Origin: Ideonella alba
GTDB lineage: Bacteria; Pseudomonadota; Gammaproteobacteria; Burkholderiales; Burkholderiaceae_C
Direction of reading: 5' to 3'
NCBI RefSeq assembly: GCF_018069875.1
Contig: NZ_JAGQDF010000012.1
Coordinates: forward strand, 1-64,000
Length of the DNA: 64,000 bases
A program made the translations under genes and the position numbers. Positions 43,847 through 59,174 of this stretch are shown one piece after another. Position 1 is the stretch's first letter. The number at the start of each line of letters is the position of its first letter. Under the pieces are notes generated by a model. That model ran no database searches, had not been told where the DNA came from, and was given only the letters and a program-made list of their open reading frames with translations.

Positions 43847-43917
43847 CGACTTAACACAAAAAACGGCCGTCTCCGGCAGCAGCCGATGATCGCATGGCGC
43901 GTTACAGTCACGCCCCG

Positions 43918-44691
43918 ATGAATGCACCCTTGATCGAACTGAAAGACGTCAGCCGCCGCCATGATTCCGGCGTGCTGGCCTTGGATGGACTGGACCTGCG
44001 CCTGGCGCCGGGCGAGCGCGTGGCCCTGCTGGGCCTGGCGGGCAGCGGCAAGAGCTCGCTGCTGCGCCTGCTGGCCGGCATCGACCGCCCGCTGTCGGGC
44101 ACCCTGCTGCGTGATGGCGAGCCGCTGCGCGCTGCGCAGGCCGATGCGGCCTTCGTGTTCTCGTCGCCGGCGCTGATGCCTTGGGCCAGCGCGTCGGTCA
44201 ACGTGGAGCTGCCGCTGCGCCTGCAGGGCTCGGCCGCACCGGTGGACACGCGCGAGCAGCGCGCCCGTGAGGCCCTGGCCGCGATGGGCCTGGAAGCCCT
44301 GGCCGACGTGCTGCCCAAGGCCCTGGACGAGTCGCAGCGCATGGGCGTGGCCCTGGCCCGTGCCTGGGTGGTGCAGCCGGCGCTGCTGCTGCTGGACGAC
44401 TGGCTGAGCCAGGTCTCGCCGGCCGCGCGTCCTGGCCTGCGCCAGGTGCTGGCCGAGGCCTCGCGCAGTGCCGCCGCACCCACCTGCGTGCTGGCCACGC
44501 GCGATGTCGACGAGGCGCTGCTGCACGCCAGCCGCGTGCTGGTGCTGGGCGGCCGCCCGGGCCGCGTGCTGGACGAGCTGCGCCTGGACAACGCCGTCCC
44601 GCGCGAGCCGGCCTGGCTCGAGACGCCCGCCGGTCAGCGCGCCCGCAAGCGCCTGCTGGAAGCGCTCAGCAGCGCCGAAGCCACCGCCTGA
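43918..44691 (+). CDS. Orphan ABC ATPase with altered catalytic motifs
   Basis: A 257-residue ATPase of the nitrate/sulfonate/taurine (TauB/SsuB) type. Walker A GLAGSGKSS is normal. The signature LSGGQ is replaced by LDESQRMGVALARAW, the catalytic Glu after Walker B is Asp (LLLLDDWLSQV), and the switch His is Arg (LATRDVDEALL). No permease or binding protein gene is adjacent. The loss of three catalytic features with preserved fold and frame suggests a regulatory or non-hydrolysing ATP-binding protein. The ATG at 43918 was preferred to an upstream ATG at 43894. Confidence 0.8.
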   Translation: MNAPLIELKDVSRRHDSGVLALDGLDLRLAPGERVALLGLAGSGKSSLLRLLAGIDRPLSGTLLRDGEPLRAAQADAAFVFSSPALMPWASASVNVELPLRLQGSAAPVDTREQRAREALAAMGLEALADVLPKALDESQRMGVALARAWVVQPALLLLDDWLSQVSPAARPGLRQVLAEASRSAAAPTCVLATRDVDEALLHASRVLVLGGRPGRVLDELRLDNAVPREPAWLETPAGQRARKRLLEALSSAEATA

Positions 44692-44819: not shown

Positions 44820-47543
44820 TCACTTGAACTTGTACTGGGCGCTCAGGTAGACGAAGCGGCCGCGCGGGTCGGTGTAGCTCGGGTCGTAGCCCGAGATGAA
44901 GAAGTAGGCCTGCTGCGAGAACGGCGGCGCGGTGTCGAACAGGTTGCGCACGCCGGCGCGCAGCGTCAGGGCGTTGTTGAACTCCCAGGCGCCCGAGAGG
45001 TTCCACAGCGAGTACTCCGACACGCGGCGGTCCGGCTTGCCGACGATGGCCTGGTCCTGGTAGCCCGACAGGTAGTTGTTCGACAGGCTGGCCGAGAACG
45101 CGCCCTGCGACCAGTCCACCGCCAGCGTATGGCGCCAGCGCTGCACCACGCCGTCGTTGATGAAGCGGCCCAGGTTGCTGACGTAGGGGTCGCCATCGCC
45201 GGTCTGCGACTTGGACTGCAGCGTCAGCGTGCCGTTGAGCGACACGCCCAGCTCGCCGATCGGGCTCTTGATCCGGGTGACGGCCACGCCCAGGTCGATG
45301 CCCGAGATCTTCTGCTTGCCGCGGTTCTGCTTGATCAGGTCGATCGCCTCGATCACCTGGTCGCTGTCGCGGTGCACCAGCGAGCCGTACTTGGCCAGGT
45401 TGCCCAGGATCACGTCCACGCCCAGCGTGCTGATCAGGTCGCTCTTCTGGATGTTCCAGTAGTCGACGCTGACGCTCAGGCCGCGGCGCGGCTCGAACAC
45501 GCCGCCCAGCGAGAACTGGCGCGACTTCTCGGGCTTGAGCTTGGGGTTGCTGTAGTTCAGCGTGGTCCAGATGTCCGAGCAGTCGGTGGGCGTGGCGTCC
45601 GGGTCGAGCTGCATGCACAGCGGATCGACCAGCGTGGCCGACGACCCCTCGGTGACCGGCCGGTAGAGGTCGGTCATGCTGGGCGCGCGGAAGCCCTTGC
45701 CCACCGAGGCGCGCAGCAGCAGCTCGCTCATCGGCACGAACTTCATGCCCAGCTTCGGGCTCAGGGCACCGCCCGAGACCTGGTACTTCTCGTAGCGCAT
45801 CGCGCCGGTCAGCTCCAGCTGCCGGGTGATGGGCGCCGACACCTCGCCGAACACCGCCGCCACCTTGCGCGAGCGGCCGAAATCGGCGCCCGGGCCCTGC
45901 GAGGTCTCGCCCAGGATCAGGTCGTCGGCCAGCGCCTGCGACTGGTGGTAGTCCTGCTTCTCGCGCCGGAATTCGCTGCCCACGGCCACCGCCAGATCGC
46001 CGCCGTCGAGCTTCATCAGCCCCCGCGAGGCCTTGACGTCCAGGCTGGTCATGGCGCCGGTGGCGCGGCGCACCTCGCCGCGGATCTGCGCGGCTTCGAA
46101 CATCGCCAGGCCAGCCGCGGTCTGCGTACCGAAGGGGTTGAGCGTGCCGTCGGCAAAGCCGTCGCGGATCGTCTGCTCGTTCAGGTAGCCCTGGTAGTCG
46201 CGGTCAGACACCTTGCTGGTGCTGTGGTTCACCGCCCATTCATAGTCCCAGCCGGCCAGCACACCGTTGGTGCCGGCCAGGACGCGCTGGGTGGTGGAGA
46301 CCAGCTCGCTGGTGCGCAGGCCGGCATCGACCAGGCGGGTGCGCACGGTGATGATGCGGTCCTCGTCATCGGCCGCCAGCGCGTTCAGCGAGGAGAAGGC
46401 CAGGAACGGGATCTTGCCGACGTCGATGTCGGCGTCGATCCGGTTGGGCGTGCCGCTGTAGAGCGTGCGGGCGCGGGCCAGCGAGACTTCGGCAAAGCCC
46501 TGGTGACCGCCGCCCAGGTCGAGCACGCCGCGGCCGAACACGCTGGACTTGGTCGACTCGGGGTAGAGCTCGATGTCGCGCATGTAGTCGAAGGTGCAGC
46601 CATCGACGCCGCCGATGCCCTCGGGCAGGTAGAGGTTGGCCGGCGGGTTGCAGCCTGTGGCCGCCGAGGGGTTGGCGCGCTTGGTCGAGATCAGGTCCAC
46701 GCCATTGGGCTTCCAGCCGTCGCTGGCCAGCGTGTCGCGCTGCGAGCTGCTGAGGACCAGGTTGCCGGGGAAGGTGGCGCTGGAGAGCAGGTCGGGCAGG
46801 CGCTGCGGGATCTGCAGGTCGGAGATGAAGCGGCGGTTCAGCGCGTTGAGCTTGCTGGTCTTCTGCAGGTCGGCCACGGCCATCAGGTTGTAGCCGTCGC
46901 GGCCGAGGTCGCCCAGGCCGCCGGCCAGCGTCACGCTGCGCTTGTTGCCGCCGCCGCCCTCGGTGGTGTTGCCCACCTGGGCGCGCAGCTCCAGGCCGTT
47001 GAAGTCCTTGCGGGTGATGAAGTTGATCACGCCGCCGATCGCATCCGAGCCGTACAGTGAGGAGGCGCCGTCGAGCAGCACCTCGACGCGCTCGATCGCG
47101 GCCGCGGGAATCGCGTTCAGGTCGACACCGGCGGCATCGCCGGGCGAGGCGAAGTTGGCCATGCGCCGGCCATTGAGCAGCACCAGCGTCGACGAGACGC
47201 CCAGGCCGCGCAGGTTGGCGCCGTTGAAGCCCATCTGGTCGCGGAAGCCGCCGTAGGCCACGCTGCCGCCATCGGTCAGGTTGGCGGCGGTGGCGCTCAG
47301 GCGCGAGATCAGCTCGGCCGCGGTGGTCACGCCGGTCTTGTCGATCTCCTCGCGGGTGATGACCTGCACCGGCAGCGCCGTCTCGCCGTCGATGCGCTTG
47401 ATCGCCGAGCCGGTGATCTCCACCCGCTGCGGCGCGGCGGTCTGGGCCAGCGCGGGCAGGGCCAGGCTCAGCGCCAAGGCGCTGGCCGACAGGGCGAACG
47501 GGAAGGCGCGGGCGGCGGGGCGGCGGCGTTCGGCAGGGGTCAT
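44820..47543 (-). CDS. TonB-dependent outer-membrane receptor
   Basis: A 907-residue receptor. Signal peptide to about residue 34 (LPALAQT), a TonB-box-like QRVEITGSAIKR, the plug domain (LPVQVITREEIDKTG, FNGANLRGLGVSSTLVLLNGRRM, IERVEVLLDGASSLYGSDAIGGVINFIT) and a ~650-residue barrel ending in LRAGVRNLFDTAPPF and a terminal YKFK. The last residue is Lys instead of the usual aromatic. Plug and barrel resemble receptors for carbohydrate or peptide-like nutrients, not siderophores. It is divergent from cyanophycinase, with 275 bp between that holds the candidate ArgR sites. Uptake of cyanophycin fragments is a reasonable inference. Confidence 0.9.
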   Translation of the reverse strand: MTPAERRRPAARAFPFALSASALALSLALPALAQTAAPQRVEITGSAIKRIDGETALPVQVITREEIDKTGVTTAAELISRLSATAANLTDGGSVAYGGFRDQMGFNGANLRGLGVSSTLVLLNGRRMANFASPGDAAGVDLNAIPAAAIERVEVLLDGASSLYGSDAIGGVINFITRKDFNGLELRAQVGNTTEGGGGNKRSVTLAGGLGDLGRDGYNLMAVADLQKTSKLNALNRRFISDLQIPQRLPDLLSSATFPGNLVLSSSQRDTLASDGWKPNGVDLISTKRANPSAATGCNPPANLYLPEGIGGVDGCTFDYMRDIELYPESTKSSVFGRGVLDLGGGHQGFAEVSLARARTLYSGTPNRIDADIDVGKIPFLAFSSLNALAADDEDRIITVRTRLVDAGLRTSELVSTTQRVLAGTNGVLAGWDYEWAVNHSTSKVSDRDYQGYLNEQTIRDGFADGTLNPFGTQTAAGLAMFEAAQIRGEVRRATGAMTSLDVKASRGLMKLDGGDLAVAVGSEFRREKQDYHQSQALADDLILGETSQGPGADFGRSRKVAAVFGEVSAPITRQLELTGAMRYEKYQVSGGALSPKLGMKFVPMSELLLRASVGKGFRAPSMTDLYRPVTEGSSATLVDPLCMQLDPDATPTDCSDIWTTLNYSNPKLKPEKSRQFSLGGVFEPRRGLSVSVDYWNIQKSDLISTLGVDVILGNLAKYGSLVHRDSDQVIEAIDLIKQNRGKQKISGIDLGVAVTRIKSPIGELGVSLNGTLTLQSKSQTGDGDPYVSNLGRFINDGVVQRWRHTLAVDWSQGAFSASLSNNYLSGYQDQAIVGKPDRRVSEYSLWNLSGAWEFNNALTLRAGVRNLFDTAPPFSQQAYFFISGYDPSYTDPRGRFVYLSAQYKFK

Positions 47544-47601
47544 CGGGGGCTCCGTGGGCGGGATGGAGGGCTGCCGGCAGTCTAGGAAGCGCCGGCGGGG
47601 C

Positions 47602-47617
47602 ATTCACTGAAGCGACA
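47602..47617 (-). promoter_or_regulatory. Imperfect ArgR-like half-site next to the receptor gene
   Basis: On the minus strand TGTCGC is followed by eight bases and AT, one mismatch from TGTCGC-N8-AA. It lies 7 bp beyond the main direct repeat and about 60 bp before the receptor ATG. Confidence 0.3.
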
Positions 47618-47623
47618 CATTGT

Positions 47624-47660
47624 GGTCGCGCTGGCGCAACTTGCGGTCGCATCGACGCAA
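47624..47660 (+). promoter_or_regulatory. Candidate ArgR (AraC-type) operator, two direct half-sites
   Basis: Two direct copies of GGTCGC followed by eight bases and AA are separated by exactly five bases: GGTCGC at 47624-47629 with AA at 47638-47639, and GGTCGC at 47645-47650 with AA at 47659-47660. As I recall it, the Pseudomonas aeruginosa AraC-family ArgR half-site is TGTCGC-N8-AA-N5 in direct repeat, so spacing is exact and each hexamer differs at one base. It lies in the divergent region between the TonB receptor and cyanophycinase, and an ArgR-type regulator gene is in the same cluster. Confidence 0.6.
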
Positions 47661-47686
47661 GAGCGGGGCACGCGTGCCCGCCTTGT

Positions 47687-47702
47687 TTGCGTCGAAGCGA
47701 CA
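47687..47702 (-). promoter_or_regulatory. ArgR-like half-site on the opposite strand
   Basis: On the minus strand the sequence is TGTCGC, eight bases, AA, a perfect half-site, 27 bp from the direct-repeat pair. Only a poor second half-site precedes it. It could be a weaker element for the receptor promoter. Confidence 0.45.
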
Positions 47703-47818
47703 TCTTCTGTTGTGATTGCGCTGACCCGGGTCGCTCCCCAGGGCGGGCGGCGCGCCGCGGTGCCAAGATCGCGCCTCGGGCCGGCCGTCGCCAGGCTGGC
47801 CGCTGCCATTTCAGGGAC

Positions 47819-49168
47819 ATGAACCATCGCGCCATGAGTCATCTTTTCCTCCGCCGCCGGCTCGCCGCCGTGCTGCTGGCCCTGGCCCCGACCTGGGCCC
47901 TGGCCCAGCTGGCGCCGCCCGAACCGGCCGACGCCGCCGCCTCGGCCCCGCTGACGGCCGGCGTGCCAGCCCCGGGCGCGGTCACCGACGGCCCGATCAA
48001 GGGCTATGCGGTGGTCATCGGCGGTGCCCTCAAGGGCGACAACGAGGACGTCTGGCGCCGCCTGGTGGAACTGTCCGGCGGCAAGGGCTCGCGCTGGGTG
48101 GTCTTCGGCACCGCCTCGCAGACGCCCGACAAGACCGCCCGGCGCCTGGCCGACCTGCTGGAGCTGCGCGGCGCCACCGCCGAGATCGTGCCCGTGGCCC
48201 CGCAGCTGAAGTGGGTCGACCTGGAGAAGGCGGTGCGCGACCCGTCACTGCTGGAGCTGGTCAACAACGCCCAGGGCATTTTCTTCAGCGGCGGCGCCCA
48301 GGAGCGCATCATCGACACCTTCAGCCCGGGCGGGCGGCCCACGCCGATGCTCAAGGCGATCTGGGGCGTCTACCAGCGCGGCGGCGTGATCGCCGGCACC
48401 TCGGCCGGTGCGGCGGTGATGAGCACCGTGATGTTTCGCGACGCGCTGAGCGTGATCAACGTGATGAAGGGCCAGCTGCGCGACGGCAAGGAGGTCGACC
48501 GCGGCCTGGGCTTCGTCGGCCCCAACCTGTTCGTCGACCAGCACTTCCTCAAGCGCGGGCGCTTCGGCCGCATGCTGCCGCTGATGATGGCGCGCGGCTA
48601 CAAGCTGGGTCTGGGCATCGACGAGAACTCCGCCGCGGTGGTGCAGGGCGACATGGTCGAGGTCATCGGCGCCAAGGGCGCGCTGCTGGTGGACCTGCGC
48701 GAGGCCCGCACCGACGCCAAGCTCGGCGCCTTCAATGTGCAGAACGCGCGCCTGACCTACCTGGACCGCGGCGACCGCTACGACCTGGGCCTGCACAAGA
48801 TCCTGCCCTCGGCGCGCAAGCTGCGCGGCCAGCGGCTGCAGGCCGGCACGCCCGACTTCAAGCCGGAGTTCCTGCGCGAGGCCTACTACACCGACATGCT
48901 CGGCGACTCCACCATCTACAACGCGATGGCCGAGCTGATCGACAGCCGGCAGGCCGAGGCCCGCGGCCTGGCCTTCGACCCCAAGGCCGCGCCCAGCGAG
49001 GCCGTGGCCGACCTGGGTTTCTCGTTCCGCCTGTACAAGGGCAAGGACAGCGTCGGCTGGTACTCTGACGAGCTGGGCGCGGACGAGTACACCGTCGCCA
49101 GCCTGTACCTGGACATCGCCCCCGTGCGCATCGCCCGACCGATGTTCACCCCCTGGACCCCGCGTTGA
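47819..49168 (+). CDS. cphE: Exported cyanophycinase
   Basis: A 449-residue serine-type exopeptidase of family S51 that cuts cyanophycin into beta-Asp-Arg dipeptides. A signal peptide (about residues 1-30, ending WALAQ) makes it the extracellular CphE type. The nucleophile motif is GTSAGAAVM with Ser at about residue 195; GYAVVIGGALKGDNEDVW opens the domain and GIFFSGGAQERI precedes the active site. The ATG at 47819 has AGGGA immediately upstream; ATG 47834 is possible. It heads the transporter operon, with 14 bp to the next start. No cyanophycin synthetase gene is in the window, so it may feed on polymer from other cells. Confidence 0.9.
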   Translation: MNHRAMSHLFLRRRLAAVLLALAPTWALAQLAPPEPADAAASAPLTAGVPAPGAVTDGPIKGYAVVIGGALKGDNEDVWRRLVELSGGKGSRWVVFGTASQTPDKTARRLADLLELRGATAEIVPVAPQLKWVDLEKAVRDPSLLELVNNAQGIFFSGGAQERIIDTFSPGGRPTPMLKAIWGVYQRGGVIAGTSAGAAVMSTVMFRDALSVINVMKGQLRDGKEVDRGLGFVGPNLFVDQHFLKRGRFGRMLPLMMARGYKLGLGIDENSAAVVQGDMVEVIGAKGALLVDLREARTDAKLGAFNVQNARLTYLDRGDRYDLGLHKILPSARKLRGQRLQAGTPDFKPEFLREAYYTDMLGDSTIYNAMAELIDSRQAEARGLAFDPKAAPSEAVADLGFSFRLYKGKDSVGWYSDELGADEYTVASLYLDIAPVRIARPMFTPWTPR

Positions 49169-49182
49169 ACGGAGACCCCTCG

Positions 49183-49962
49183 ATGACCCGCCGTCCCCTG
49201 ATCGCCCTGCTGGCCCTGCTGGCCAGCCTCACCCTGACCGCCCACGCCCAGGCGCCCGACTGGAAAAAGGTGCGCATCGGCGTCGAGGGCGCCTACCCGC
49301 CGTTCTCGGAGGTGGGCACGGACGGCAAGTTGAAGGGTTTCGACATCGACATCGCGATGGCCCTGTGCGCCGAAATGAAGGCCGAATGCGTGCTGGTGCA
49401 GCAGGACTGGGACGGCATGATCCCGTCGCTGCAGGCGCGCAAGTTCGACGCCATCATCGCCTCGATGGCGATCACGCCCGAACGCCAGAAGCAGGTCAAC
49501 TTCAGCAACAAGTACTACAACACGCCGCCGGCCTTCATCGGCAAGGGCGCGCCGCGCGACATCTCGCCCGCGGCGATGAAGGGCAAGAAGATCGGCGTGC
49601 AGCGCACCACCAGCCACGACCGCTACGCCACCAAGTACTACGCCGGCAGCGAGATCGTGCGCTACGCCAAGCAGGACGACATCTTCCTGGACCTGGCCGC
49701 GGGCCGGCTCGACGCCACGCTGTGCGACCAGGTCGCGGGCAGCGAAGGCTTCCTGAAGAAGCCCGCCGGCAAGGGCTTCGCGGTGCTGGGCAACCCGGTG
49801 GACGACCCCGAGATCTTCGGCACCGGCTCGGGCATCGCGATGCGCAAGGCCGACACCGCGCTGCTCGACAAGTTCAATGCGGCCATCGCCGCGGTGCGCG
49901 CCAACGGCACCTACAAGAAGCTCCAGGACAAGTACTTCGACTTCGACATCTACGGCAAGTAA
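49183..49962 (+). CDS. aotJ: Arginine/ornithine-type (AotJ-like) periplasmic binding protein
   Basis: A 259-residue SBP family-3 protein with signal peptide to about residue 22 (TAHAQA), then VRIGVEGAYPPFSEVGTDGKLKGFDIDIAMALC and CDQVAGSEGFLKKP, as in the histidine/lysine/arginine/ornithine binding proteins. In this operon it should bind arginine-type ligands, probably including beta-Asp-Arg. GGAGA precedes the ATG at 49183. Confidence 0.88.
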   Translation: MTRRPLIALLALLASLTLTAHAQAPDWKKVRIGVEGAYPPFSEVGTDGKLKGFDIDIAMALCAEMKAECVLVQQDWDGMIPSLQARKFDAIIASMAITPERQKQVNFSNKYYNTPPAFIGKGAPRDISPAAMKGKKIGVQRTTSHDRYATKYYAGSEIVRYAKQDDIFLDLAAGRLDATLCDQVAGSEGFLKKPAGKGFAVLGNPVDDPEIFGTGSGIAMRKADTALLDKFNAAIAAVRANGTYKKLQDKYFDFDIYGK

Positions 49963-49968
49963 GCGCTG

Positions 49969-50655
49969 ATGCTGTACGGCTACGGCGCCAGCCTGCTGCA
50001 GGGCGCGCTGCTGTCGCTGGCGGTGGCCCTGGGCAGCCTGGGCATCGCCTTCCTGCTGGGGCTGGCCGGCGCGCTGGCCAGCCTGGCGCGCTCGCGCCTG
50101 TTGAACGCGCTGGCGCTGGCCTACACCACGCTGATCCGCGGCGTGCCCGATCTGGTGCTGATGCTGCTGGTCTTCTATGGCGGCCAGATGGCCGTCAATG
50201 CGCTGGGTGAGCGCCTGGGCTGGGACTATGTCGACATCGACCCCTTCGTGGCCGGCGTGCTGACCATCGGCTTCGTCTTCGGCGCCTACCTGGCCGAGGT
50301 GCTGCGCGGCGCCTTCCTGGCGGTCCCGCCGGGTCAGCGCGAGGCGGCGCTGGCCTTCGGCATGACCCGCGGCCAGGTGCTGCGCCGGGTGGTCGGTCCG
50401 CAGATGCTGCGCCATGCGCTGCCGGGCCTGTCGAACAACTGGCTGGTGATGATCAAGAGCACCTCCATCGTCTCGGTGATCGGCCTGCACGACATGATGG
50501 CGCGCGCCGGTCAGGCGGCGGGCGCCACGCGCGAGCCCTTCGTCTTCTACCTGGCCGTGGCCGGGCTGTACCTGCTGTTCACCAGTGCCTCGGAGCTGGG
50601 CTTTGCCTGGCTGTCGCGGCGCCTGTCGATCGGCGTGCGGCGGGTGAGCCTGTGA
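49969..50655 (+). CDS. aotQ: Amino-acid ABC transporter permease (AotQ/HisQ-like)
   Basis: A 228-residue inner-membrane permease with about five helices and the polar-amino-acid EAA loop REAALAFGMTRGQVLRRVVGPQ. Pairs with the next permease as a heterodimer. It starts 6 bp after the binding-protein stop; the following gene overlaps its stop (TGATG). Confidence 0.9.
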   Translation: MLYGYGASLLQGALLSLAVALGSLGIAFLLGLAGALASLARSRLLNALALAYTTLIRGVPDLVLMLLVFYGGQMAVNALGERLGWDYVDIDPFVAGVLTIGFVFGAYLAEVLRGAFLAVPPGQREAALAFGMTRGQVLRRVVGPQMLRHALPGLSNNWLVMIKSTSIVSVIGLHDMMARAGQAAGATREPFVFYLAVAGLYLLFTSASELGFAWLSRRLSIGVRRVSL

Positions 50656-51344
50656 TGCTGGACTGGGGCGTCATCGCCGACAGCCTGCCGCTGTATGCCA
50701 GCGGCGCGGTGGTCACCGTGCAGCTGCTGGTGCTGGCGCTGGCCGCCGGCCTGGCCGTTGCGCTGCCGCTGGCCATGCTGCGCAGCCTGTCCAACCCCTG
50801 GCTGAGCAAGCCGGTGTGGCTCTACACCTACGTCATCCGCGGCACGCCGATGCTGGTGCAGCTGTTCCTGCTGTACTACGGGCTGGCGCAGTTCGAGTGG
50901 GTGCGCCAGAGCGCCGCCTGGCCGCTGCTGTCCTCGGCCTGGTTCTGCGCCATCGCCGCCTTCGCCCTCAACACCTGCGCCTACACCACCGAGATCCTGC
51001 ACGGCGCGATGAAGGCGGTGCCCGCCGGCGAGGTCGAGGCCGCGCGCGCGCTGGGCATGGGCCGCTGGCTGACGCTGCGCCGCATCGTGCTGCCGCAGGC
51101 CTTCCGCCGCGCGCTGCCAGCCTATGGCAACGAGGTGGTGCTGATGCTGCACGGCACCTCGCTGGCCAGCGTGGTCACGATCGCCGACCTCACCGGTGCC
51201 GCGCGCGAGGTCAACTCGGTCCACTACCTGCCTTTCGAGGCCTTCCTCACCGCCGCCGTGTTCTACCTGGCGATCACGGCGGTGCTGGTGACGATCTTCC
51301 GCGCCGCCGAGCGGCGCTGGCTGCAGCCCATGGGCGCCCGCTGA
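50655..51344 (+). CDS. aotM: Amino-acid ABC transporter permease (AotM/HisM-like)
   Basis: A 229-residue second permease with the EAA loop VEAARALGMGRWLTLRRIVLPQAFRRALPAYGNEVVLMLHGTS typical of HisM. ATG 50655 shares bases with the aotQ stop; a GTG one codon earlier is an alternative. It ends 2 bp before the dipeptidase gene. Confidence 0.9.
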   Translation: MLDWGVIADSLPLYASGAVVTVQLLVLALAAGLAVALPLAMLRSLSNPWLSKPVWLYTYVIRGTPMLVQLFLLYYGLAQFEWVRQSAAWPLLSSAWFCAIAAFALNTCAYTTEILHGAMKAVPAGEVEAARALGMGRWLTLRRIVLPQAFRRALPAYGNEVVLMLHGTSLASVVTIADLTGAAREVNSVHYLPFEAFLTAAVFYLAITAVLVTIFRAAERRWLQPMGAR

Positions 51345-51346
51345 CG

Positions 51347-52465
51347 ATGAGAACCCAACACCACACTCTGCTGGCTGCCACCCCCGGCACCCGCCACGAA
51401 CTGGTCAGCCTGCACTACGGCACGCCGGGCGGCCGCAAGGTCTACATCCAGGGCGCGCTGCACGCCGACGAGGTGCCGGGCCTGCTGGTGGCCCACCACC
51501 TGCGCGGCCTGCTGGCCACGGCCGAGGCCGAAGGCCGGCTGCTGGGCGAGGTGGTGCTGGTGCCCGCCGCCAACCCGCTGGGCCTGCGCCAGTGGCATCT
51601 GCGTGGCTACCAGGGCCGCTTCGAGTTCACCAGCGGTGAGAACTTCAACCGCCACTTCGCCGACCTCAGCGAGCCCGCGCTGGCCCGTGTGCAGGACCGC
51701 CTGGGGCCGGACGCCGCCACCAACGTTGCGCTGGTGCGCGCCGCGCTGCGCGAGGCCGCCGCCGAACTGAGCGCCACCACGCCGCTGGAGGACCTGCGCC
51801 GCCTGCTGCTGGGCCTGGCGATCGACGCCGAGCTGGTGCTGGACCTGCACTCCGACGGTGAAGGCCTGCTGCACATCTACACCACGCCCGCCACCTGGGA
51901 CCAGGCCGAGCTGCTGGTGCGCTGCATCGATGCCCGCGTGGCGCTGATCGCCGAGCGCTCGGGCGGCGACCCGTTTGATGAAGCCTGCTCGATGGTCTGG
52001 CCGCAGATCGCGGCGCGTCTGCCCGCGGGCACTCCGCTGCCGCCGTCCTGCCTGGCCGCCACGATCGAGCTGCGCGGCGAGGGCGATGTGCGCCACGAGC
52101 TGGCCGCGCAGGACGCCGCCGGCATCCTGCGCCTGCTGGTGGCGCGCGGCATCGTGCGCGACGACGCCGCGGCCGACATCCCGCCGCTGCGCTGCCAGCC
52201 CACGCCGCTGGCCGGCTCGATCCCGCTGGTGGCGCCGCATGGCGGCATGGTGGTGTTCCTGAAGGAGCCCGGCGCCGAAGTGGTCGAGGGCGAACCCATC
52301 GTCGACGTCATCGACCCGATCACCGGCCAGGTCAGCACGCTGGGCGCCGGCACCACGGGCCTGTTCTTCGCCCGCGAGAACCGCCGCTTCGCGGTGGCCG
52401 GCATGGCGCTGGGCAAGGTGGCCGGCGTGGACGCGCGGCGCAGCGGCTCGCTGCTGTCGGTGTGA
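51347..52465 (+). CDS. cphZ: CphZ/AotO-type M14 metallopeptidase (beta-Asp-Arg dipeptidase)
   Basis: A 372-residue zinc hydrolase of the M14 / succinylglutamate desuccinylase-aspartoacylase group. Zinc ligands are His39 and Glu42 (GALHADEVPG) and His168 (LVLDLHSDGEG), with a probable catalytic Glu in ATIELRGEG near 236. The C-terminal beta domain contains APHGGMVVFLKEPGAEVVEGEPI. In P. aeruginosa the gene at this place in the aot operon, aotO, encodes a CphZ enzyme that splits cyanophycin-derived beta-Asp-Arg, as I recall from published work. Gene order and cyanophycinase linkage make the same function likely. No signal peptide, so it acts on imported dipeptide in the cytoplasm. Confidence 0.85.
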   Translation: MRTQHHTLLAATPGTRHELVSLHYGTPGGRKVYIQGALHADEVPGLLVAHHLRGLLATAEAEGRLLGEVVLVPAANPLGLRQWHLRGYQGRFEFTSGENFNRHFADLSEPALARVQDRLGPDAATNVALVRAALREAAAELSATTPLEDLRRLLLGLAIDAELVLDLHSDGEGLLHIYTTPATWDQAELLVRCIDARVALIAERSGGDPFDEACSMVWPQIAARLPAGTPLPPSCLAATIELRGEGDVRHELAAQDAAGILRLLVARGIVRDDAAADIPPLRCQPTPLAGSIPLVAPHGGMVVFLKEPGAEVVEGEPIVDVIDPITGQVSTLGAGTTGLFFARENRRFAVAGMALGKVAGVDARRSGSLLSV

Positions 52466-52475
52466 GGGCGCTGCC

Positions 52476-53249
52476 ATGAGTGCACACCTGGGCCTGACGG
52501 TCGACAACCTGCACAAGCGCTTCGGTGAGCGCGAGGTGCTGCGCGGCGTCTCGCTCAGCGCGAAGCCCGGTGACGTGGTGGCCATCATCGGCTCCAGCGG
52601 CTCGGGCAAGAGCACGCTGCTGCGCTGCCTGAACCTGCTGGAGCAGCCGTTTGAGGGCACGCTGCGCCTGGGCGATGAAACCCTGGCCCTGAAGCGCGAC
52701 CGCGACGGCAGCCTGACGGCTTCGGACGATGCCCAGCTGCGCCGCTGGCGCGCCCGCCTGGCCTTCGTCTTCCAGAGCTTCAACCTGTGGCAGCACCGCA
52801 CGGTGCTGGAGAACGTCATCGAGGCGCCGATCCATGTGCTGGGCCAGCCGCGCGCCCAGGCGGTGGAACGCGGCGAGCAGCTGCTGGCGCGCGTGGGCCT
52901 GTCGCACCGTCTGCAGGTCTACCCGGCGCAGCTGTCGGGCGGCGAGCAGCAGCGCGTGGCGATTGCCCGCGCGCTGGCGGTGGACCCCGAGGTGATGCTG
53001 TTCGACGAGCCCACCTCGGCCCTTGACCCCGAGCTGGTGGGCGAGGTGCTGAAGGTGATGCGCGAACTCGCCGCCGAGGGCCGCACCATGCTGGTGGTCA
53101 CGCACGAGATGGAGTTCGCCCGCGAGGTGGCCAGCCACGCGATCTTCCTGCACCAGGGCCTGATCGAGGAACAGGGCGTGCCGCGCGAGGTGCTGGTGCG
53201 CCCGCGCAGCGAACGGCTGCGCCAGTTCCTCAGCGGGGGACTGAAGTGA
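52476..53249 (+). CDS. aotP: Amino-acid ABC transporter ATPase (AotP/HisP-like)
   Basis: A 257-residue ATPase with all motifs intact: Walker A GSSGSGKST, signature LSGGEQQRVAIARAL, Walker B VMLFDEPTSALDPE and switch His in VVTHEMEFAREV. It includes the insertion with RDRDGSLTASDDAQLRRWRAR typical of HisP-type ATPases for basic amino acids. It powers the AotQM permease. Confidence 0.93.
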   Translation: MSAHLGLTVDNLHKRFGEREVLRGVSLSAKPGDVVAIIGSSGSGKSTLLRCLNLLEQPFEGTLRLGDETLALKRDRDGSLTASDDAQLRRWRARLAFVFQSFNLWQHRTVLENVIEAPIHVLGQPRAQAVERGEQLLARVGLSHRLQVYPAQLSGGEQQRVAIARALAVDPEVMLFDEPTSALDPELVGEVLKVMRELAAEGRTMLVVTHEMEFAREVASHAIFLHQGLIEEQGVPREVLVRPRSERLRQFLSGGLK

Positions 53250-53271
53250 TGCAGCCACGGGGCCCGTTGGC

Positions 53272-54291
53272 ATGAGCTCGGCCCGCGTCGGCTGCCTGCT
53301 GCTGCCGGGCTTCTCGCTGGGCACGCTGGCGGGCGTGATCGATCCGCTGGCGCAGGCGGCGGCGCTGCAGCCGGGCCGCATGCCCGAGCCGGTGATGCTC
53401 TCGCTGGATGGCCGGCCGGTGCGCGCCGGCGCGGGCGCGTGGGTGGTCTGCACCGAGCTGCGTGCCGCGCCGCCGCTGCAGCTGGCCATGGTGGTGAGCG
53501 ACCTGCCCTGGCACGAACAGGATCCCCTGGGCCCGGCGGTGCTGCTGTGGCTGCGCGAGCAGGCCGCGGCCGGTGCCTGCCTGGGCGGCGTGGGCACCGG
53601 TGCCGCCTGGCTGGCCGAGGCCGGTCTGCTGCAGGGCCACCGCGCCACGCTGCACTGGCCGCACCTGGCGGCGCTGGCCGAGCGCCACCCGGGGGTGGTG
53701 CTGTCGCAGCAGCGCTTCGAGATTGACCGCCAGCGCCTGAGCAGCGCCGGTGGCGAGGCCGCCCGCGACCTGATGATCGCCTGGCTGGGTCACCACCATG
53801 GCGATCGGCTGGCGCAGGAGCTGGCCGCGCACGCCGGCCTGCCTGGTCCGCGCCCGGCGGACGAGCGCCAGCGCGTGCCCGGCAGCGGCCGCGGCGGCGC
53901 CGGCTCGGCCAAGCTGGCCGAGGCGCTGGCGCTGATGGAGGCCAACCTGTCCGAGCCGCTGCCCACCGAAGACATCGCGCGCCTGGTGGGCGTGTCGCGC
54001 CGCCACCTTGAGCGGCTGTTCCGCCAGCACCTGGACGCGCTGCCCTCGCGCTGGTACCTGGGGCTGCGCCTGGAGCGCGCCCAGGCCCTGCTGCGCCAGA
54101 CGCCGCAGTCGATCCTGCAGATCGGCCTGGCCTGCGGCTTTGCCAGCGGGCCGCATTTCTCCAACGCCTACCGCGCCCACTTCGGCCGCACGCCGCGCGA
54201 TGAGCGCGGCCTGCGCGCCCAGGCCTGGCGCGACGCCGCTGCCACCGAGCCCGCGCCCGGCAACGCGGCCCGCGACGAGCGCAGCGCCTGA
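53272..54291 (+). CDS. argR: ArgR-type AraC-family regulator with DJ-1/PfpI-like domain
   Basis: A 339-residue GlxA-like regulator: a DJ-1/PfpI-like sensor half (about 5-195, VGCLLLPGFSLGTLAGVIDPL, GACLGGVGTGAAWLAEAG) and a C-terminal AraC HTH (LPTEDIARLVGVSRRHLERLFRQHL and FASGPHFSNAYRAHFGRTP). This matches Pseudomonas ArgR in architecture and in position at the end of the aot operon before the aru genes. It is unrelated to hexameric E. coli ArgR. Likely activates its own operon through the repeats upstream of cphE, sensing arginine. Confidence 0.85.
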   Translation: MSSARVGCLLLPGFSLGTLAGVIDPLAQAAALQPGRMPEPVMLSLDGRPVRAGAGAWVVCTELRAAPPLQLAMVVSDLPWHEQDPLGPAVLLWLREQAAAGACLGGVGTGAAWLAEAGLLQGHRATLHWPHLAALAERHPGVVLSQQRFEIDRQRLSSAGGEAARDLMIAWLGHHHGDRLAQELAAHAGLPGPRPADERQRVPGSGRGGAGSAKLAEALALMEANLSEPLPTEDIARLVGVSRRHLERLFRQHLDALPSRWYLGLRLERAQALLRQTPQSILQIGLACGFASGPHFSNAYRAHFGRTPRDERGLRAQAWRDAAATEPAPGNAARDERSA

Positions 54292-54293
54292 GC

Positions 54294-55346
54294 ATGGCCG
54301 ACGCCCCGCGCTACTTGCTGCGGCCGGCCGCCCTGGCCGACCTGCCGGGCCTGGAGCGCCTGGCCGGTGCCAGCGCGATCGGCATCAGCTCGCTGCCGGC
54401 CGACCGCGAGGCCCTGCGCGAGCGCATCGTCCGTTCGCAGCGCAGCTTCGCCGATGGCGACGAGCCGGATGCCCACTACCTCTTCGTGCTGGAAGACCGT
54501 CAGCAGGCCGGGGCGCTGGTGGGCACCGGCGGCATCGCGGCGCGTGCGGGGGCTGGCGATCGCTTCTACAGCTACCGCAATGAATTCACGGTGCACGCCA
54601 GCCCGGCGCTGGGGGTGCGCAACCGCATCCACACGCTGCACCTGTGCCACGACCTGACCGGCGCCACGGTGCTCACCGGCTTTCACATCGATCCGGCCCA
54701 CGAGGACGGCCCCGGCGCCCAGCTGCTGTCGCGCGGGCGCTTGCTGTTCATCGCCAGCTTCCCCGAGCGCTTCACCGACCGCATCGTCTCGGAGCACCCG
54801 GGCCTGGCCGACGAGTCGGGCGCCTGCCCGTTCTGGGACGCGGTGGGCCGGCGCTTCTTCCACCTCGACTACCCGGCCGCCGAGCGCCTGGCCAGCGGCC
54901 AGGGCCGCGCCTTCCTGGCCGAGCTGCTGCCGCAGTCGCCGATCTACGTGCCGCTGCTGGACGAGGCCACGCAGTGGGCGCTGGGCCAGCTCCACCCGGT
55001 GGCCGAGCGGCCCTTCTCGATCCTGCTGGACGAGGGCTTTGACGCCGACACCTGGCTCAACGTCTTCGACGGCGGCCCGACGATGGAGGCCCGGCTGCCG
55101 ATGCTCAAGACCGCGCGCCGTCTGCGCAGCGTGGGCGTGCTGCCGCCCGCCCCGCGCGCTGCGCGCGGCGGCCACGCCACGCACCTGGCCGCCGGTCGGC
55201 GGCTGCAGCACTGGCGCGCCACGCTGCTGGCGCTGGACGCCACCGCGCCCGCGGTGGCGCTGCGCGACGACGAAGCCGCCTTGCTGGGCCTGGCCGTGGG
55301 CGACAGCCTCTGCGTGGCCGCGCTGGACGGCCCGGACGGCACCTGA
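54294..55346 (+). CDS. aruF: Arginine N-succinyltransferase subunit alpha
   Basis: A 350-residue AstA-family enzyme that transfers succinyl from succinyl-CoA to arginine, first step of the AST pathway. Motifs include YLLRPAALADLPGLERLAG, RNRIHTLHLCHDLTGATVL, LLSRGRLLFIASFPERFTDRIVSE, FWDAVGRRFFHLDY and IYVPLLDEATQWALGQLH. It is 2 bp from the regulator and 2 bp from the second subunit. Two AstA-type genes in a row is the aruFG arrangement of pseudomonads. Confidence 0.9.
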   Translation: MADAPRYLLRPAALADLPGLERLAGASAIGISSLPADREALRERIVRSQRSFADGDEPDAHYLFVLEDRQQAGALVGTGGIAARAGAGDRFYSYRNEFTVHASPALGVRNRIHTLHLCHDLTGATVLTGFHIDPAHEDGPGAQLLSRGRLLFIASFPERFTDRIVSEHPGLADESGACPFWDAVGRRFFHLDYPAAERLASGQGRAFLAELLPQSPIYVPLLDEATQWALGQLHPVAERPFSILLDEGFDADTWLNVFDGGPTMEARLPMLKTARRLRSVGVLPPAPRAARGGHATHLAAGRRLQHWRATLLALDATAPAVALRDDEAALLGLAVGDSLCVAALDGPDGT

Positions 55347-55348
55347 CG

Positions 55349-56098
55349 ATGCGCTGGACCGTCCGCCCCGTGCAAGCGGCCGACCTGTCGGCGCTGCGCC
55401 CCTGGCTGCCCGCCCAGGCCGACACCATGCTGCCGCGCCCGGACGCCGCCGCCGCCTGGCTGCTGGCCGAAGGCGCCCAGGGCCCGGCCGCCTGTCTGCG
55501 CGTGCGCGGCCCGATCGGCCTGCAGCGGCCGCGCCACTGGTACCACGTGGGCTGTGTGGTGCATGCGGCGCCCGAGCTGTCGCTGTTCCACCGCCAGCAC
55601 ACCCTGCTGCTGGGCAACGACCACACCGGCGCCAGCGAGCTGGCCGAGCGCGCGCATGCGCCGGGCCTGGACGCGGCCGCCCAGGCCTCGGCCTGGCGCG
55701 CCCTGCTGGACGCCGCCCGCGAGCACCTGCAGGCCACCCGCGCGCTGCAGGGCGGCAGGGTGATCGCCGAACTGCCCGGCCTGCGCGACGCCCAGGGCCG
55801 CTCGCCGTTCTGGCAAGGCCTGGGCCGCCATTTCCACGCTGGCGACCCCGACGCCGTGCTGCAGCGCCTGGGTCTGGACGGCCGAGCCCAGCTGGCCGCC
55901 CTGATGCCGCGGCAGGTGGTCTATGCCTCCTTCCTGAGCCCCGCCGCGCAGGCGGCCATGGCCCAGGCCGCGCCCGCGGCCCGCGTGTGGATGGACACGC
56001 TGGCCGACGCGGGCTTCCGCTACAGCCACCACATCGACATCGTCGACGGCGGCCCGGTCTTCGAAACCCACCTGGACAGCTGGTGCGCCCGGCGCTGA
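55349..56098 (+). CDS. aruG: Arginine N-succinyltransferase second subunit (shortened)
   Basis: A 249-residue AstA paralogue with the same opening (WTVRPVQAADLSALRPWL) and FWQGLGRHFHAGDPDAV, QVVYASFLSPAAQAAM and FRYSHHIDIVDGGPVFET. It is about 100 residues shorter than its neighbour and most AruG proteins. The region corresponding to RIHTLHLCHD through LLFIASFPERF is more divergent, and the C-terminal extension after DGGP is missing. It may work only as a structural partner of AruF. Confidence 0.85.
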   Translation: MRWTVRPVQAADLSALRPWLPAQADTMLPRPDAAAAWLLAEGAQGPAACLRVRGPIGLQRPRHWYHVGCVVHAAPELSLFHRQHTLLLGNDHTGASELAERAHAPGLDAAAQASAWRALLDAAREHLQATRALQGGRVIAELPGLRDAQGRSPFWQGLGRHFHAGDPDAVLQRLGLDGRAQLAALMPRQVVYASFLSPAAQAAMAQAAPAARVWMDTLADAGFRYSHHIDIVDGGPVFETHLDSWCARR

Positions 56099-56103
56099 AG
56101 AGC

Positions 56104-56547
56104 ATGGACGACTGGGACCTGCCCCGCCCCTTCCTGCTGCGCGTGGCGCCTGAGCCCGGCGACATCGACGGCCTGGACCACACCAACAACGCCGTCTACC
56201 TGCGCTGGTGCGAGCAGGCCGGCTGGGCCCACTCCGAGGCCCTGGGCCTGTCGATCGCCGATTACCGCCGCCTGGACCGCGCCATGGCCATTCACCGCGG
56301 CGAGTACGACTACCTGCTGCCCACCCAGCTGGGCGACGCGCTGGAACTGGCCACCTGGCTGCTGTCCGGCGACGGCCGCCTGCGCATGGAGCGCCGCTTC
56401 CAGCTGCGCCGCCTGCGCGACGGCGCCACCGTCCTGCGCGGCCGCTGGCAACTGGTCTGCATCGAAATCAGCAGCGGCCAGGCGCGCCGCATGCCACCGG
56501 AGTTCTGCGCGGTGTATCTGCCCGCGGCAGTGACCGCCTCGGGCTGA
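56104..56547 (+). CDS. Hot-dog fold acyl-CoA thioesterase
   Basis: A 147-residue 4HBT-like thioesterase with the signature DIDGLDHTNNAVYLRWCEQAGWAHSEALG containing the catalytic Asp-His-x-Asn-Asn region. It probably hydrolyses a short acyl-CoA, and next to the succinyltransferase genes a succinyl-CoA-related role is conceivable but unproven. Last gene of the operon; an inverted-repeat element begins 3 bp after its stop. Confidence 0.85.
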   Translation: MDDWDLPRPFLLRVAPEPGDIDGLDHTNNAVYLRWCEQAGWAHSEALGLSIADYRRLDRAMAIHRGEYDYLLPTQLGDALELATWLLSGDGRLRMERRFQLRRLRDGATVLRGRWQLVCIEISSGQARRMPPEFCAVYLPAAVTASG

Positions 56548-56549
56548 AG

Positions 56550-56807
56550 TCTGGTTTCTGCCCACAGCGGCCGTAGGCCGCTGTGGGCCAAGGCCCCGAA
56601 CGTTGGGCTCCCCCGAGCCCCCCTCCAAGAGGGTGGCTCCAGTCAGAACCACAAAAGGTGGTGCGCCAAGCGTGCCAGTGCCACGCCGGCCGGCAGGCCG
56701 GCCCGAAGCTCATGCTGGAGCCCCCTTCTTGGAGGGGGGCTGGGGGGAGCTCAACGGAATAGGGCTCTGCCCACAGCGGCCTGCGGCCGCTGTGGGCAGG
56801 AACCAGA
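56550..56807. repeat. 258-bp imperfect inverted-repeat element (MITE/REP-like)
   Basis: Two 93-bp arms (56550-56642 and 56715-56807) are inverted copies of each other, identical at roughly four of five positions by eye, around a 72-bp centre. Each arm itself contains a 13-bp hairpin, GCCCACAGCGGCC with GGCCGCTGTGGGC (56560-56588 and 56769-56797), and a C-rich block near CCCCCCTCCAAGA. There is no coding capacity and no clear target-site duplication. It may be a non-autonomous mobile element, or two REP units in opposite orientation. It separates the arginine operon from ompW and could also stop transcription. Confidence 0.75.
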
Positions 56808-57544: not shown

Positions 57545-57864
57545 GGAGGAACTCCTTCTTCGTTGCATTGACTTGAAAACAACCGGACCGCGCTGGTGCG
57601 GCGGATGGGGTCATTGCAACGTCTGGTGACCAGGTCGAGTTTGCTGTCGCGCAAACTGCCGGCCGCGGTCCCGGCCAGCCCGGGCGGCCACCTGACCTTG
57701 GTCAAACTCGCGCCGCGAGGCTGATGCGTTCGCGCAACAGTGCCCGGCGACCGCTCCCCCCATGCTCGAAGTCCGCGCGGCCATGGTGCGGCGCGGCCGT
57801 TCTCGCTAAGCTCGCTCGCCAGGCCAGCCGTCCGGCGGGCCTGGAGCAACAGGAGTTGTCTGTG
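57545..57864. other. 320-bp divergent intergenic region
   Basis: It holds the promoters of ompW (minus) and of the secreted pair (plus). The only patterned element I see is CTGAC-CTTG-GTCAA at 57692-57705, a poor match to the FNR/Anr inverted repeat TTGAT-N4-ATCAA; E. coli ompW responds to FNR, but the match is too weak to call. No small gene is convincing. Confidence 0.4.
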
Positions 57865-58473
57865 ATGTCGATGGACCTCGCCCCCCGCCTGGCAGCCGCC
57901 GCTGCCGCCGCCGTCCTGCTCGGCCAGACGCCGCTGGCCTCGGCCTGTACCGTGCAGCGCCTGCACCTGATGACGCCCTCGGTGAGCGAGCCGGCGCAGG
58001 TCGGCATGGTGGGCCACGTCGACAACGGCACCAAGACGGATGGGGGCAGCTACCGGGCCGAGCTGGTCGTGACCCAGGCCCTGGTGGACGACATCGCCGC
58101 CAGCATTGCCGGCGGCTGCAGCCAGTGGATCCACCATGCCGGGGGCGGCAACATCGTCCTGATGGGCATCGCCAGCGGCAGCTACTCGGCCAAGAACCAG
58201 TTGCAGTGGATTCCAGCCAGCACCGGCCTGAAGCAGAAGATGCACACCTGGCGCGACAGCGCGGCGGGTGACACCGGGGGCTTCGTCACCCACCCGCACG
58301 ACGCCGAACTGAAGAAGAAGCAGATGCGCGCCCTGGTGGCGGGCGATGTGCTGCGCCTGACCGGCAAGGCCCAGGCCAGCGGCACCATCATCGATGGCTG
58401 GGTGGCCGACCAGGTGCAGTCGCTCTACAACTGGGCGGGCACCACGCCCTACATCGAGGTGTGGATTCCCTGA
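57865..58473 (+). CDS. Secreted protein of unknown function, first of a tandem paralogous pair
   Basis: A 202-residue exported protein: signal peptide ending near LASAC (about residue 27), then RAELVVTQALVDDIAASIAGGCSQWI, GNIVLMGIASGSYSAKNQLQWIPASTG, GDTGGFV and KKKQMRALVAGDVLRLTG. No family was recognised. AGGAG lies 9 nt before the ATG. The next gene is a clear paralogue. The signal peptides end in Ser-Ala-Cys, so lipidation is possible but the box is weak. Confidence 0.72.
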   Translation: MSMDLAPRLAAAAAAAVLLGQTPLASACTVQRLHLMTPSVSEPAQVGMVGHVDNGTKTDGGSYRAELVVTQALVDDIAASIAGGCSQWIHHAGGGNIVLMGIASGSYSAKNQLQWIPASTGLKQKMHTWRDSAAGDTGGFVTHPHDAELKKKQMRALVAGDVLRLTGKAQASGTIIDGWVADQVQSLYNWAGTTPYIEVWIP

Positions 58474-58526
58474 GGGCTGACGGACGCCGGCGTTCTCTGT
58501 TGTTTAACGATGAATGGAGGCTCTTG

Positions 58527-59174
58527 ATGCATGCGGATCCAATACGGTCTGGGCACCGTTGTTCGTGGCCCCCGGCCCGCCAGGTGGCTGCGGCGGTCAT
58601 CGTGGGCCTGGCGTGCAGCGCCGCGAGCGCCTGCACCCGGTCCCGCACCCACTGGATGGAACTCAAGGTCAAGGATCTCGCCTTGTTGCGGATGGCTGGT
58701 GATGTCGACGGTGGTACATCACGCTCACTGGCGGCAGACTTTCGCGCCGAGTCGGTGATGGTGGCCGGTTCGCAACTGTGGGCCGACCTCCGAGCCAGTT
58801 TGGCGGGTGGTTGCGAACAGTGGATCGATCGTGGGGCGCCCCATGGCCGCATCGTGCTGACCGGCGCCGCTGATGGCCGCTACACCGCGCGGTCCAGCGT
58901 GGTGCTCATTCCAGCCGCCACTGGCGACAAGGTGAAGTTGACCAGCGGCTGGGAAGAACAGGCGATCGGCGACACCGGTGGCAACGTGTACTACCAGGAC
59001 ATCGTGCCACTCAAGAAGAAACCGATGAGGAGCCTCGCCGAGGGCGACCGTATCCGCATCACGACCAACATCACCCTGGAAGGCGTGATGATCGGCAACA
59101 CAGCCGCTGACCAGCTTGAGGTGTTTTTCGAACCCGAATTCCCCTTCGTCACTCTGAGGATGACGCTGCCCTGA
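58527..59174 (+). CDS. Secreted protein of unknown function, second of a tandem paralogous pair
   Basis: A 215-residue exported protein with the same layout as its upstream neighbour: ASAC at the signal end, AGSQLWADLRASLAGGCEQWI, GRIVLTGAADGRYTARSSVV, IPAATGDKV, GDTGGNVYY, LKKKPMRSLAEGDRIRIT. Shared blocks in the same order show tandem duplication. Its codon use looks less GC-extreme than its neighbour. The ATG at 58527 follows GGAGG by 6 nt. It converges with metF, whose stop is 9 bp away. Confidence 0.72.
   Translation: MHADPIRSGHRCSWPPARQVAAAVIVGLACSAASACTRSRTHWMELKVKDLALLRMAGDVDGGTSRSLAADFRAESVMVAGSQLWADLRASLAGGCEQWIDRGAPHGRIVLTGAADGRYTARSSVVLIPAATGDKVKLTSGWEEQAIGDTGGNVYYQDIVPLKKKPMRSLAEGDRIRITTNITLEGVMIGNTAADQLEVFFEPEFPFVTLRMTLP

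Follow-up and report, generated by a model that had tools for sequence, protein, structure and literature searches.

How a bacterium may bring the polymer cyanophycin through its outer membrane, and what becomes of the arginine released from it, is the question raised by a locus of Ideonella alba. The DNA analysed, referred to here as the window, is a stretch of 64,000 nucleotides (positions 1 to 64,000 of contig NZ_JAGQDF010000012.1, assembly GCF_018069875.1, forward strand) and belongs to contig C3 of the genome, which measures 5.5 Mb. Within it, ten plus-strand genes lie in tight file (47834-56547) with intergenic gaps of -4 to 22 bp, in the order cyanophycinase (cphE), binding protein, two permeases, M14 dipeptidase, ATPase, AraC-family regulator, aruF, aruG and thioesterase. 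The gene of a TonB-dependent receptor diverges from cphE, and every named gene is an intact open frame (Table 1). An original prediction, made from the sequence alone, had placed these genes and families here, with the same order and few-bp spacing, and had joined cphE to the aot operon; family scans agree on the names and the tight packing bears out the rest. The island had also been called complete up to arginine succinylation. Since the remaining enzymes of that pathway were not found, this description was dropped.

The locus is probably an arginine-regulated cyanophycin scavenging island. Family membership and gene context, which supply the substrates, enzyme activities, localisation, inducer and regulation assumed here, point to the following route. 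The TonB receptor would take soluble cyanophycin or its oligomers across the outer membrane, and the exported CphE would release beta-Asp-Arg from the chains, the periplasm being the likeliest site of cutting. An AotJ-type binding protein and an AotQMP-type permease would then carry the dipeptide or arginine inward, and CphZ would split the dipeptide into aspartate and arginine. An ArgR-type regulator would sense arginine and activate receptor gene and operon alike through ARG boxes in the promoter they share. AruFG would acylate arginine, ornithine (following arginase) or the dipeptide, and would not serve as the entry to the classical arginine succinyltransferase (AST) pathway. If true, the model would provide an outer-membrane entry route for cyanophycin that is backed by conserved linkage and regulatory evidence and tied to an arginine-sensing promoter. 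It would also leave AruFG, in a family where it is found only in genomes with cyanophycinase, without a known pathway, making the fate of the arginine directly testable.

The TonB receptor and its linkage to cphE

Both the plug and the barrel domain of the receptor were matched. In a set of 299 family genomes, themselves part of a larger group, 48 gave cphE matches (67 places, E ≤ 1e-40), and receptors of the window's type were found in 79 among the matches listed (E ≤ 1e-90, three best candidates per genome scored). Linkage was counted over all 67 cphE places and the first 79 receptor matches, with weaker and unlisted ones outside the count. Of 56 receptors with at least 44% identity to that of the window, 45 have cphE no more than 10 kb away, and in 41 of these the two genes diverge at a distance of at most 1.5 kb. 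None of the 23 receptors below 44% identity has cphE inside that range. Linkage in relatives had been set beforehand as a test of the predicted receptor role, and it holds in most of them.

Seen from the cphE side, a receptor of at least 44% identity is present within 10 kb in 37 of the 48 genomes, and the receptor stands beside cphE in 15 of 18 named loci from Ideonella, Roseateles, Paucibacter and other Burkholderiales. Since the I. alba genome holds 23 plug-domain matches (22 above the cut-off), the likelihood that a receptor adjoins cphE by chance is small. A receptor tree has linked and unlinked members intermixed within well-supported clades. Of the loci in it, L040 and L041 hold AruF, and the receptors of L069, L077, L078 and L082 belong to AruFG islands; in three of these four, some 7 kb separate receptor and cphE. 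Divergent receptor lineages, down to 45% identity with the window's receptor, are thus island-linked.

Two further genes were seen next to receptors. An orphan ABC ATPase gene adjoins that of the window (43894-44691), and a related ATPase lies close to the receptor in L034, L035, L036, L040 and L041, with L034 adding a permease and an NMT1-type binding protein. A PF00144 beta-lactamase-fold protein adjoins the receptor at L074:5467-6591, with a related gene in five of the loci retrieved for comparison.

A probable arginine-responsive promoter

The AraC-family regulator of the operon aligns with Pseudomonas aeruginosa ArgR over 315 columns (E 9e-68). According to the excerpted text of PMC10963909, the ARG box of P. 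aeruginosa reads TGTCGCN6GNAA and occurs in tandem with 5 bp between boxes. The region between the receptor gene and cphE holds such a tandem pair on the plus strand, with a spacer of exactly 5 bp and G as first base where the consensus has T, as well as a strict-form box on the receptor strand. Across the 5.5 Mb genome, this promoter is the single site of an exact tandem pair. A tolerant search for the tandem pattern gave 47 matches, 46 of which had two or three mismatches, and its backwards control gave 177. The prediction of an ArgR-type regulator is upheld by the homology and by these boxes, through which the regulator may respond to arginine and act on both the receptor gene and the operon.

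From 70 receptor/cphE promoters, 53 remained after 17 duplicate loci were dropped. ARG boxes were present in 27 of 30 promoters from loci with AruF and the regulator, the window included, and in one of 12 without (Fisher 9e-7, a value to be taken as a guide only since the loci are related and it overstates their independence). The 30 promoters hold 55 sites, compared with 0.31 expected from shuffles, and G occupies position 13 in 91% of the site list, a position that was not imposed. Because the box form with G at position 1 was picked after the window had been seen, the strict published form was counted too: it was found in 25 of 30 promoters and in one of 12, the backwards pattern gave none, and 21 bp was the commonest spacing between half-sites. 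Three of the 12 loci lacking AruF (L038, L042, L046) end on their contigs ahead of the place of the regulator. Since L042 is the only boxed one among the 12, the decidable count becomes none of nine. A further 11 short loci of undecided regulator status were kept apart. Only one of these (L027) has boxes, and in its genome the regulator is found on a different contig, at the end; the coordinates of another, L004, suggest that it is identical with L035.

Several observations weigh against the scavenging model. Eleven of the 56 close receptors have no cphE within 10 kb, although it lies elsewhere in their genomes, and 11 of the 48 cphE genomes have no such receptor within 10 kb among the matches used. 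Of the named loci, L037 and L044 are without a receptor beside cphE, and L033 ends at a contig edge. Three loci (L091, L093, L096) carry the regulator and AruF yet have no ARG box. In 19 kb of P. aeruginosa, five box matches were found: one before aotJ and two before aruC, whereas the remaining two fall ahead of acs and within astD. A simple scan found no sigma-70-like promoter. To these may be added the relatedness of the loci, already mentioned, and two points on the cyanophycinase and the polymer that are taken up below.

Cyanophycinase and the site of cleavage

CphE passes the NCBIfam equivalog TIGR02069 (136.9 bits, cut-off 126.6), and its matches in the PDB are the cyanophycinases 7uqv, 3en0 and 7uqw. 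The nucleophile motif GTSAGA is present. The serine had been numbered 195, which is correct if the protein starts at 47819; from the start at 47834 it is residue 190. Inspection by eye shows a signal peptide on CphE and no sign of a lipobox. Among relatives, a simple lipobox pattern flagged the CphE frames of L073, L075, L085, L087 and L088, mostly frames extended upstream. Of the named relatives in the collection of genomes, Ideonella aquatica is the closest; its CphE shows 96% identity in the best segment, and the same island is present there.

Cleavage by CphE most likely occurs in the periplasm, following TonB-driven uptake. The original prediction had ordered these steps differently: CphE would be secreted and cut the polymer outside the cell, and the receptor would import oligomers or the dipeptide. 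This order is quite possible, although its chances fall below even. It is consistent with a signal peptide that lacks a lipobox, and the CphE of Pseudomonas anguilliseptica is, going by the title of Obst 2002, reportedly an extracellular enzyme, which favours cutting outside. On the other hand, a dipeptide of some 290 Da ought to enter without a TonB receptor, and in L043, L045 and L047 the receptor stays with CphE while no aot-type transporter was found nearby. Periplasmic cleavage of imported chains is preferred.

A second cyanophycinase-like stretch was seen downstream of aruG in L098 and L100.

The inner-membrane transporter and the CphZ-type dipeptidase

The binding protein passes TIGR01096, a model for basic amino acids, with 264.4 bits against a cut-off of 256.35. 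The M14 protein carries an AstE_AspA_cat domain and matches 8ein (E 1e-73) as well as 8eip, chains which we take to be CphZ structures and which the PDB names as succinylglutamate desuccinylase. The zinc ligands and catalytic glutamate are kept as His39, Glu42, His168 and Glu241, the first three as originally predicted, and Glu241 aligns with a glutamate that is alanine in the 8eip chain. The proposal of a CphZ-type dipeptidase embedded in the transporter genes is upheld by this homology and by the retained catalytic residues, and the enzyme is predicted to cleave beta-Asp-Arg.

AruFG and the fate of arginine

AruF is 47% identical to its P. aeruginosa counterpart and scores above the cut-off of TIGR03243, but falls below the AOST equivalog TIGR03245 (352.9 against 458.8 bits) and below the cut-off of the AstA equivalog. 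AruG is 249 amino acids long, compared with 340 in P. aeruginosa. No AstB was found in any of the 299 family genomes, that of I. alba included, nor was AstD in the 299 (E ≤ 1e-100, at most five candidates per genome scored), while E. coli and Caulobacter controls were positive for both. AstE was searched for in the I. alba genome, and none was found: the AstE domain (PF24827) occurs there three times, in CphZ, in an M14 protein of 309 amino acids and in an MpaA-like protein, of which the latter two match no AstE model in NCBIfam. With these enzymes not found, AruFG has no known succinyltransferase pathway to feed, and the predicted passage of arginine into succinyltransferase catabolism is not supported.

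The distribution of AruFG suggests another association. In a comparison of 34 AstA matches, taken without the shorter second-subunit matches, AstA-type genes were present in 31 of the 299 genomes, and every one of these 31 also belongs to the 48 genomes that have cphE (P ~3e-30). In 28 of them, no more than 10 kb separate the AstA-type gene from cphE. The exceptions are G182 and G288, in which the gene stands at the end of a contig, and G011, where it belongs to a receptor/CphZ/aot island without cphE. Since AstA is confined to cphE genomes, AruFG appears to be kept with cyanophycin use and not with the AST pathway and, by its genomic distribution, is a putative cyanophycin-associated enzyme. 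A broader proposal may be put forward tentatively, at somewhat less than even chances: that AruFG was uncoupled from AST in this family and took on a new cyanophycin-specific task, such as succinylating arginine or beta-Asp-Arg set free by CphZ or CphE, alongside a receptor subfamily dedicated to the uptake of cyanophycin chains and a local ArgR whose only perfect tandem target in the genome is the island.

The substrate of AruFG could also be ornithine. Arginase would convert arginine to ornithine, AruFG would succinylate it, and non-orthologous enzymes would complete the route to glutamate. The AOST of pseudomonads accepts ornithine as well, arginase-superfamily genes (agmatinases included) are present in 236 of the 299 genomes, and in G034 an arginase gene (286 bits, cut-off 227.6) lies directly 3' of aruG, hinting at ornithine as the AruFG substrate in that genome. 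Such a variant is nevertheless rather doubtful. A relative of the G034 arginase is found in only one of 33 AruF loci, the strongest arginase-superfamily match in the I. alba genome is an agmatinase by NCBIfam with two others unclassified, and the failure to find AstD and, in I. alba, AstE counts against this route as well. Arginase was rejected as a general next step, adjoining aruG in that single locus of the 33.

Conservation of the gene set

AruF is present in 33 of 41 loci examined. These 33 loci hold AruG in 33, an AraC-family gene next to AruF in 32, CphE in 30, the TonB receptor in 30 and CphZ in 29. The carrier varies: an aot-type ABC transporter is present in 14, a DcuC/YfcC-type protein (PF03606) in 11, and neither in full in eight. 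Two of the AruF loci, L079 and L095, end at contig edges. Gene calls in the relatives are rough, with some reverse-strand frames called, and the core-gene counts rest on tblastn anchors. At the AruG end of the examined loci, no other recurring gene was seen. The thioesterase had been regarded as a new part of the system, but among these loci it is restricted to the window and a single I. aquatica locus (L032/L102); present in one of the 33 AruF loci, it was rejected as a core part and is better described as a lineage-specific extra.

Source of the polymer and weaker alternatives

The I. alba genome carries two adjacent genes of the cyanophycin synthetase (CphA) type (L061, G000 C35:76258-81012), one above and the other below the model cut-off. 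With this pair present, the polymer need not be foreign, and kin as well as cyanobacteria may be its source. It is unlikely, though, that the island serves to recycle the cell's own or its siblings' cyanophycin and not foreign polymer. The CphA-type pair and the finding that CphE is the sole cyanophycinase in the genome at E ≤ 1e-40 are in line with such recycling, but an intracellular cyanophycinase could escape this threshold, and the export of CphE, as well as its pairing with a receptor of the outer membrane, speaks against the idea.

The original proposal of an island feeding a working AST pathway is very unlikely. AruF and AruG do follow the regulator as in P. aeruginosa, and AruF passes the subfamily model TIGR03243; this is outweighed by searches that found neither AstB nor AstD (E ≤ 1e-100) in the 299 family genomes while the E. 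coli and Caulobacter controls were positive, by the two remaining AstE-domain proteins of I. alba that match no AstE model, and by the scores of AruF under the AOST and AstA equivalog cut-offs. In its classical form this reading is refuted, unless unrelated enzymes replace AstB, AstD and AstE. Also very unlikely is a receptor for another ligand, such as a siderophore, in an incidental position: among named TonB models, those for siderophore, B12 and haem receptors come nearest, each with a score far under its cut-off, and six close relatives examined (L065-L068, L070, L071) have no island gene around them, yet the subfamily is linked to cphE even in receptors of 45% identity and shares with it an ARG-box promoter.

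Relation to known systems

The P. aeruginosa region (L140) resembles the scavenging island in the order of transporter, M14, ATPase and ArgR genes, followed by AruF and AruG homologues. Its annotated record reads aotJ-Q-M-(M14)-aotP-argR, the order originally stated, and continues with aruC-F-G-D-B-(hypothetical)-E, with ARG boxes before aotJ and aruC. The 19 kb shown hold neither a TonB receptor nor cphE. Conversely, the window's cluster is without aruC, aruD, aruB and aruE, its AruG is shortened, and its boxes are in the receptor/cphE promoter. An aot-M14 cluster is also present in Paracoccus, with no annotated cyanophycinase in the 17 kb shown.

A cyanophycin utilization locus described by Ben Hania et al. 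(as cited in an excerpt of PMC10206079) clusters cyanophycinase, dipeptidase and transporter for scavenging, a combination also present in the window. As far as that excerpt goes, the window differs in having a CphZ-type M14 enzyme in place of IadA/IaaA and in adding the TonB receptor, the ArgR-type regulator and AruFG. The role of the receptor had been considered a new part of the system. In Citromicrobium sp. JLT1363, a TonB receptor adjoins a cyanophycinase and the same substrate was suggested (PMC3400609, excerpt), so the idea of this pairing is not new; in the excerpt it concerns one genome, without operon-wide or regulatory evidence. Among the papers listed, titles and opening lines of abstracts revealed no account of the whole set with AruFG and ArgR, part of which may be covered by a PNAS paper on CphZ, and the whole set is not treated in the excerpts of PMC12661447, PMC7564069, PMC2536512 and PMC8880816.

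Features of the locus and neighbouring sequence

Table 1. Genes and predicted regulatory sites of the island, numbered from the first letter of the window.
Feature	Position	Strand	Evidence or remark
TonB-dependent receptor, 907 aa	44820-47543 (or from 47603)	-	plug and barrel; signal peptide by eye
Tandem ARG boxes, GGTCGCGCTGGCGCAA-5 bp-GGTCGCATCGACGCAA	47624-47660	+	face cphE; published consensus but for the first base
ARG box TGTCGCTTCGACGCAA, strict form	47687-47702	-	strand of receptor gene
cphE, predicted exported cyanophycinase (S51)	47834-49168 (alternative start 47819)	+	TIGR02069, GTSAGA, PDB matches
AotJ-type periplasmic binding protein	49183-49962	+	TIGR01096; 56% to P. aeruginosa AotJ
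AotQ-type permease	49969-50655	+	54% to P. aeruginosa AotQ
AotM-type permease	50652-51344	+	61% to P. aeruginosa AotM
CphZ/AotO-type M14 dipeptidase	51347-52465	+	8ein/8eip; 47% to M14 protein of P. aeruginosa aot operon
AotP-type ATPase	52476-53249	+	68% to P. aeruginosa AotP
ArgR-type AraC-family regulator	53272-54291	+	41% to P. aeruginosa ArgR; AraC HTH
AruF-type succinyltransferase subunit	54294-55346	+	PF04958, TIGR03243; 1yle 3e-88
AruG-type subunit, shortened, 249 aa	55349-56098	+	PF04958; 32% to P. aeruginosa AruG
4HBT-type thioesterase (4HBT_2, PF13279)	56104-56547	+	starts 5 bp past aruG

Farther downstream, two neighbouring genes encode proteins of 249 and 237 amino acids (57724-59174), with a Pfam match for neither. 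Just past the operon, the palindrome CCCACAGCGGCCnnnGGCCGCTGTGGG occurs twice (56561-56587 and 56770-56796) within a 93-nt inverted repeat. These are its only two copies in the window, and none was found in 100 shuffles; the pair looks like a REP-type doublet.

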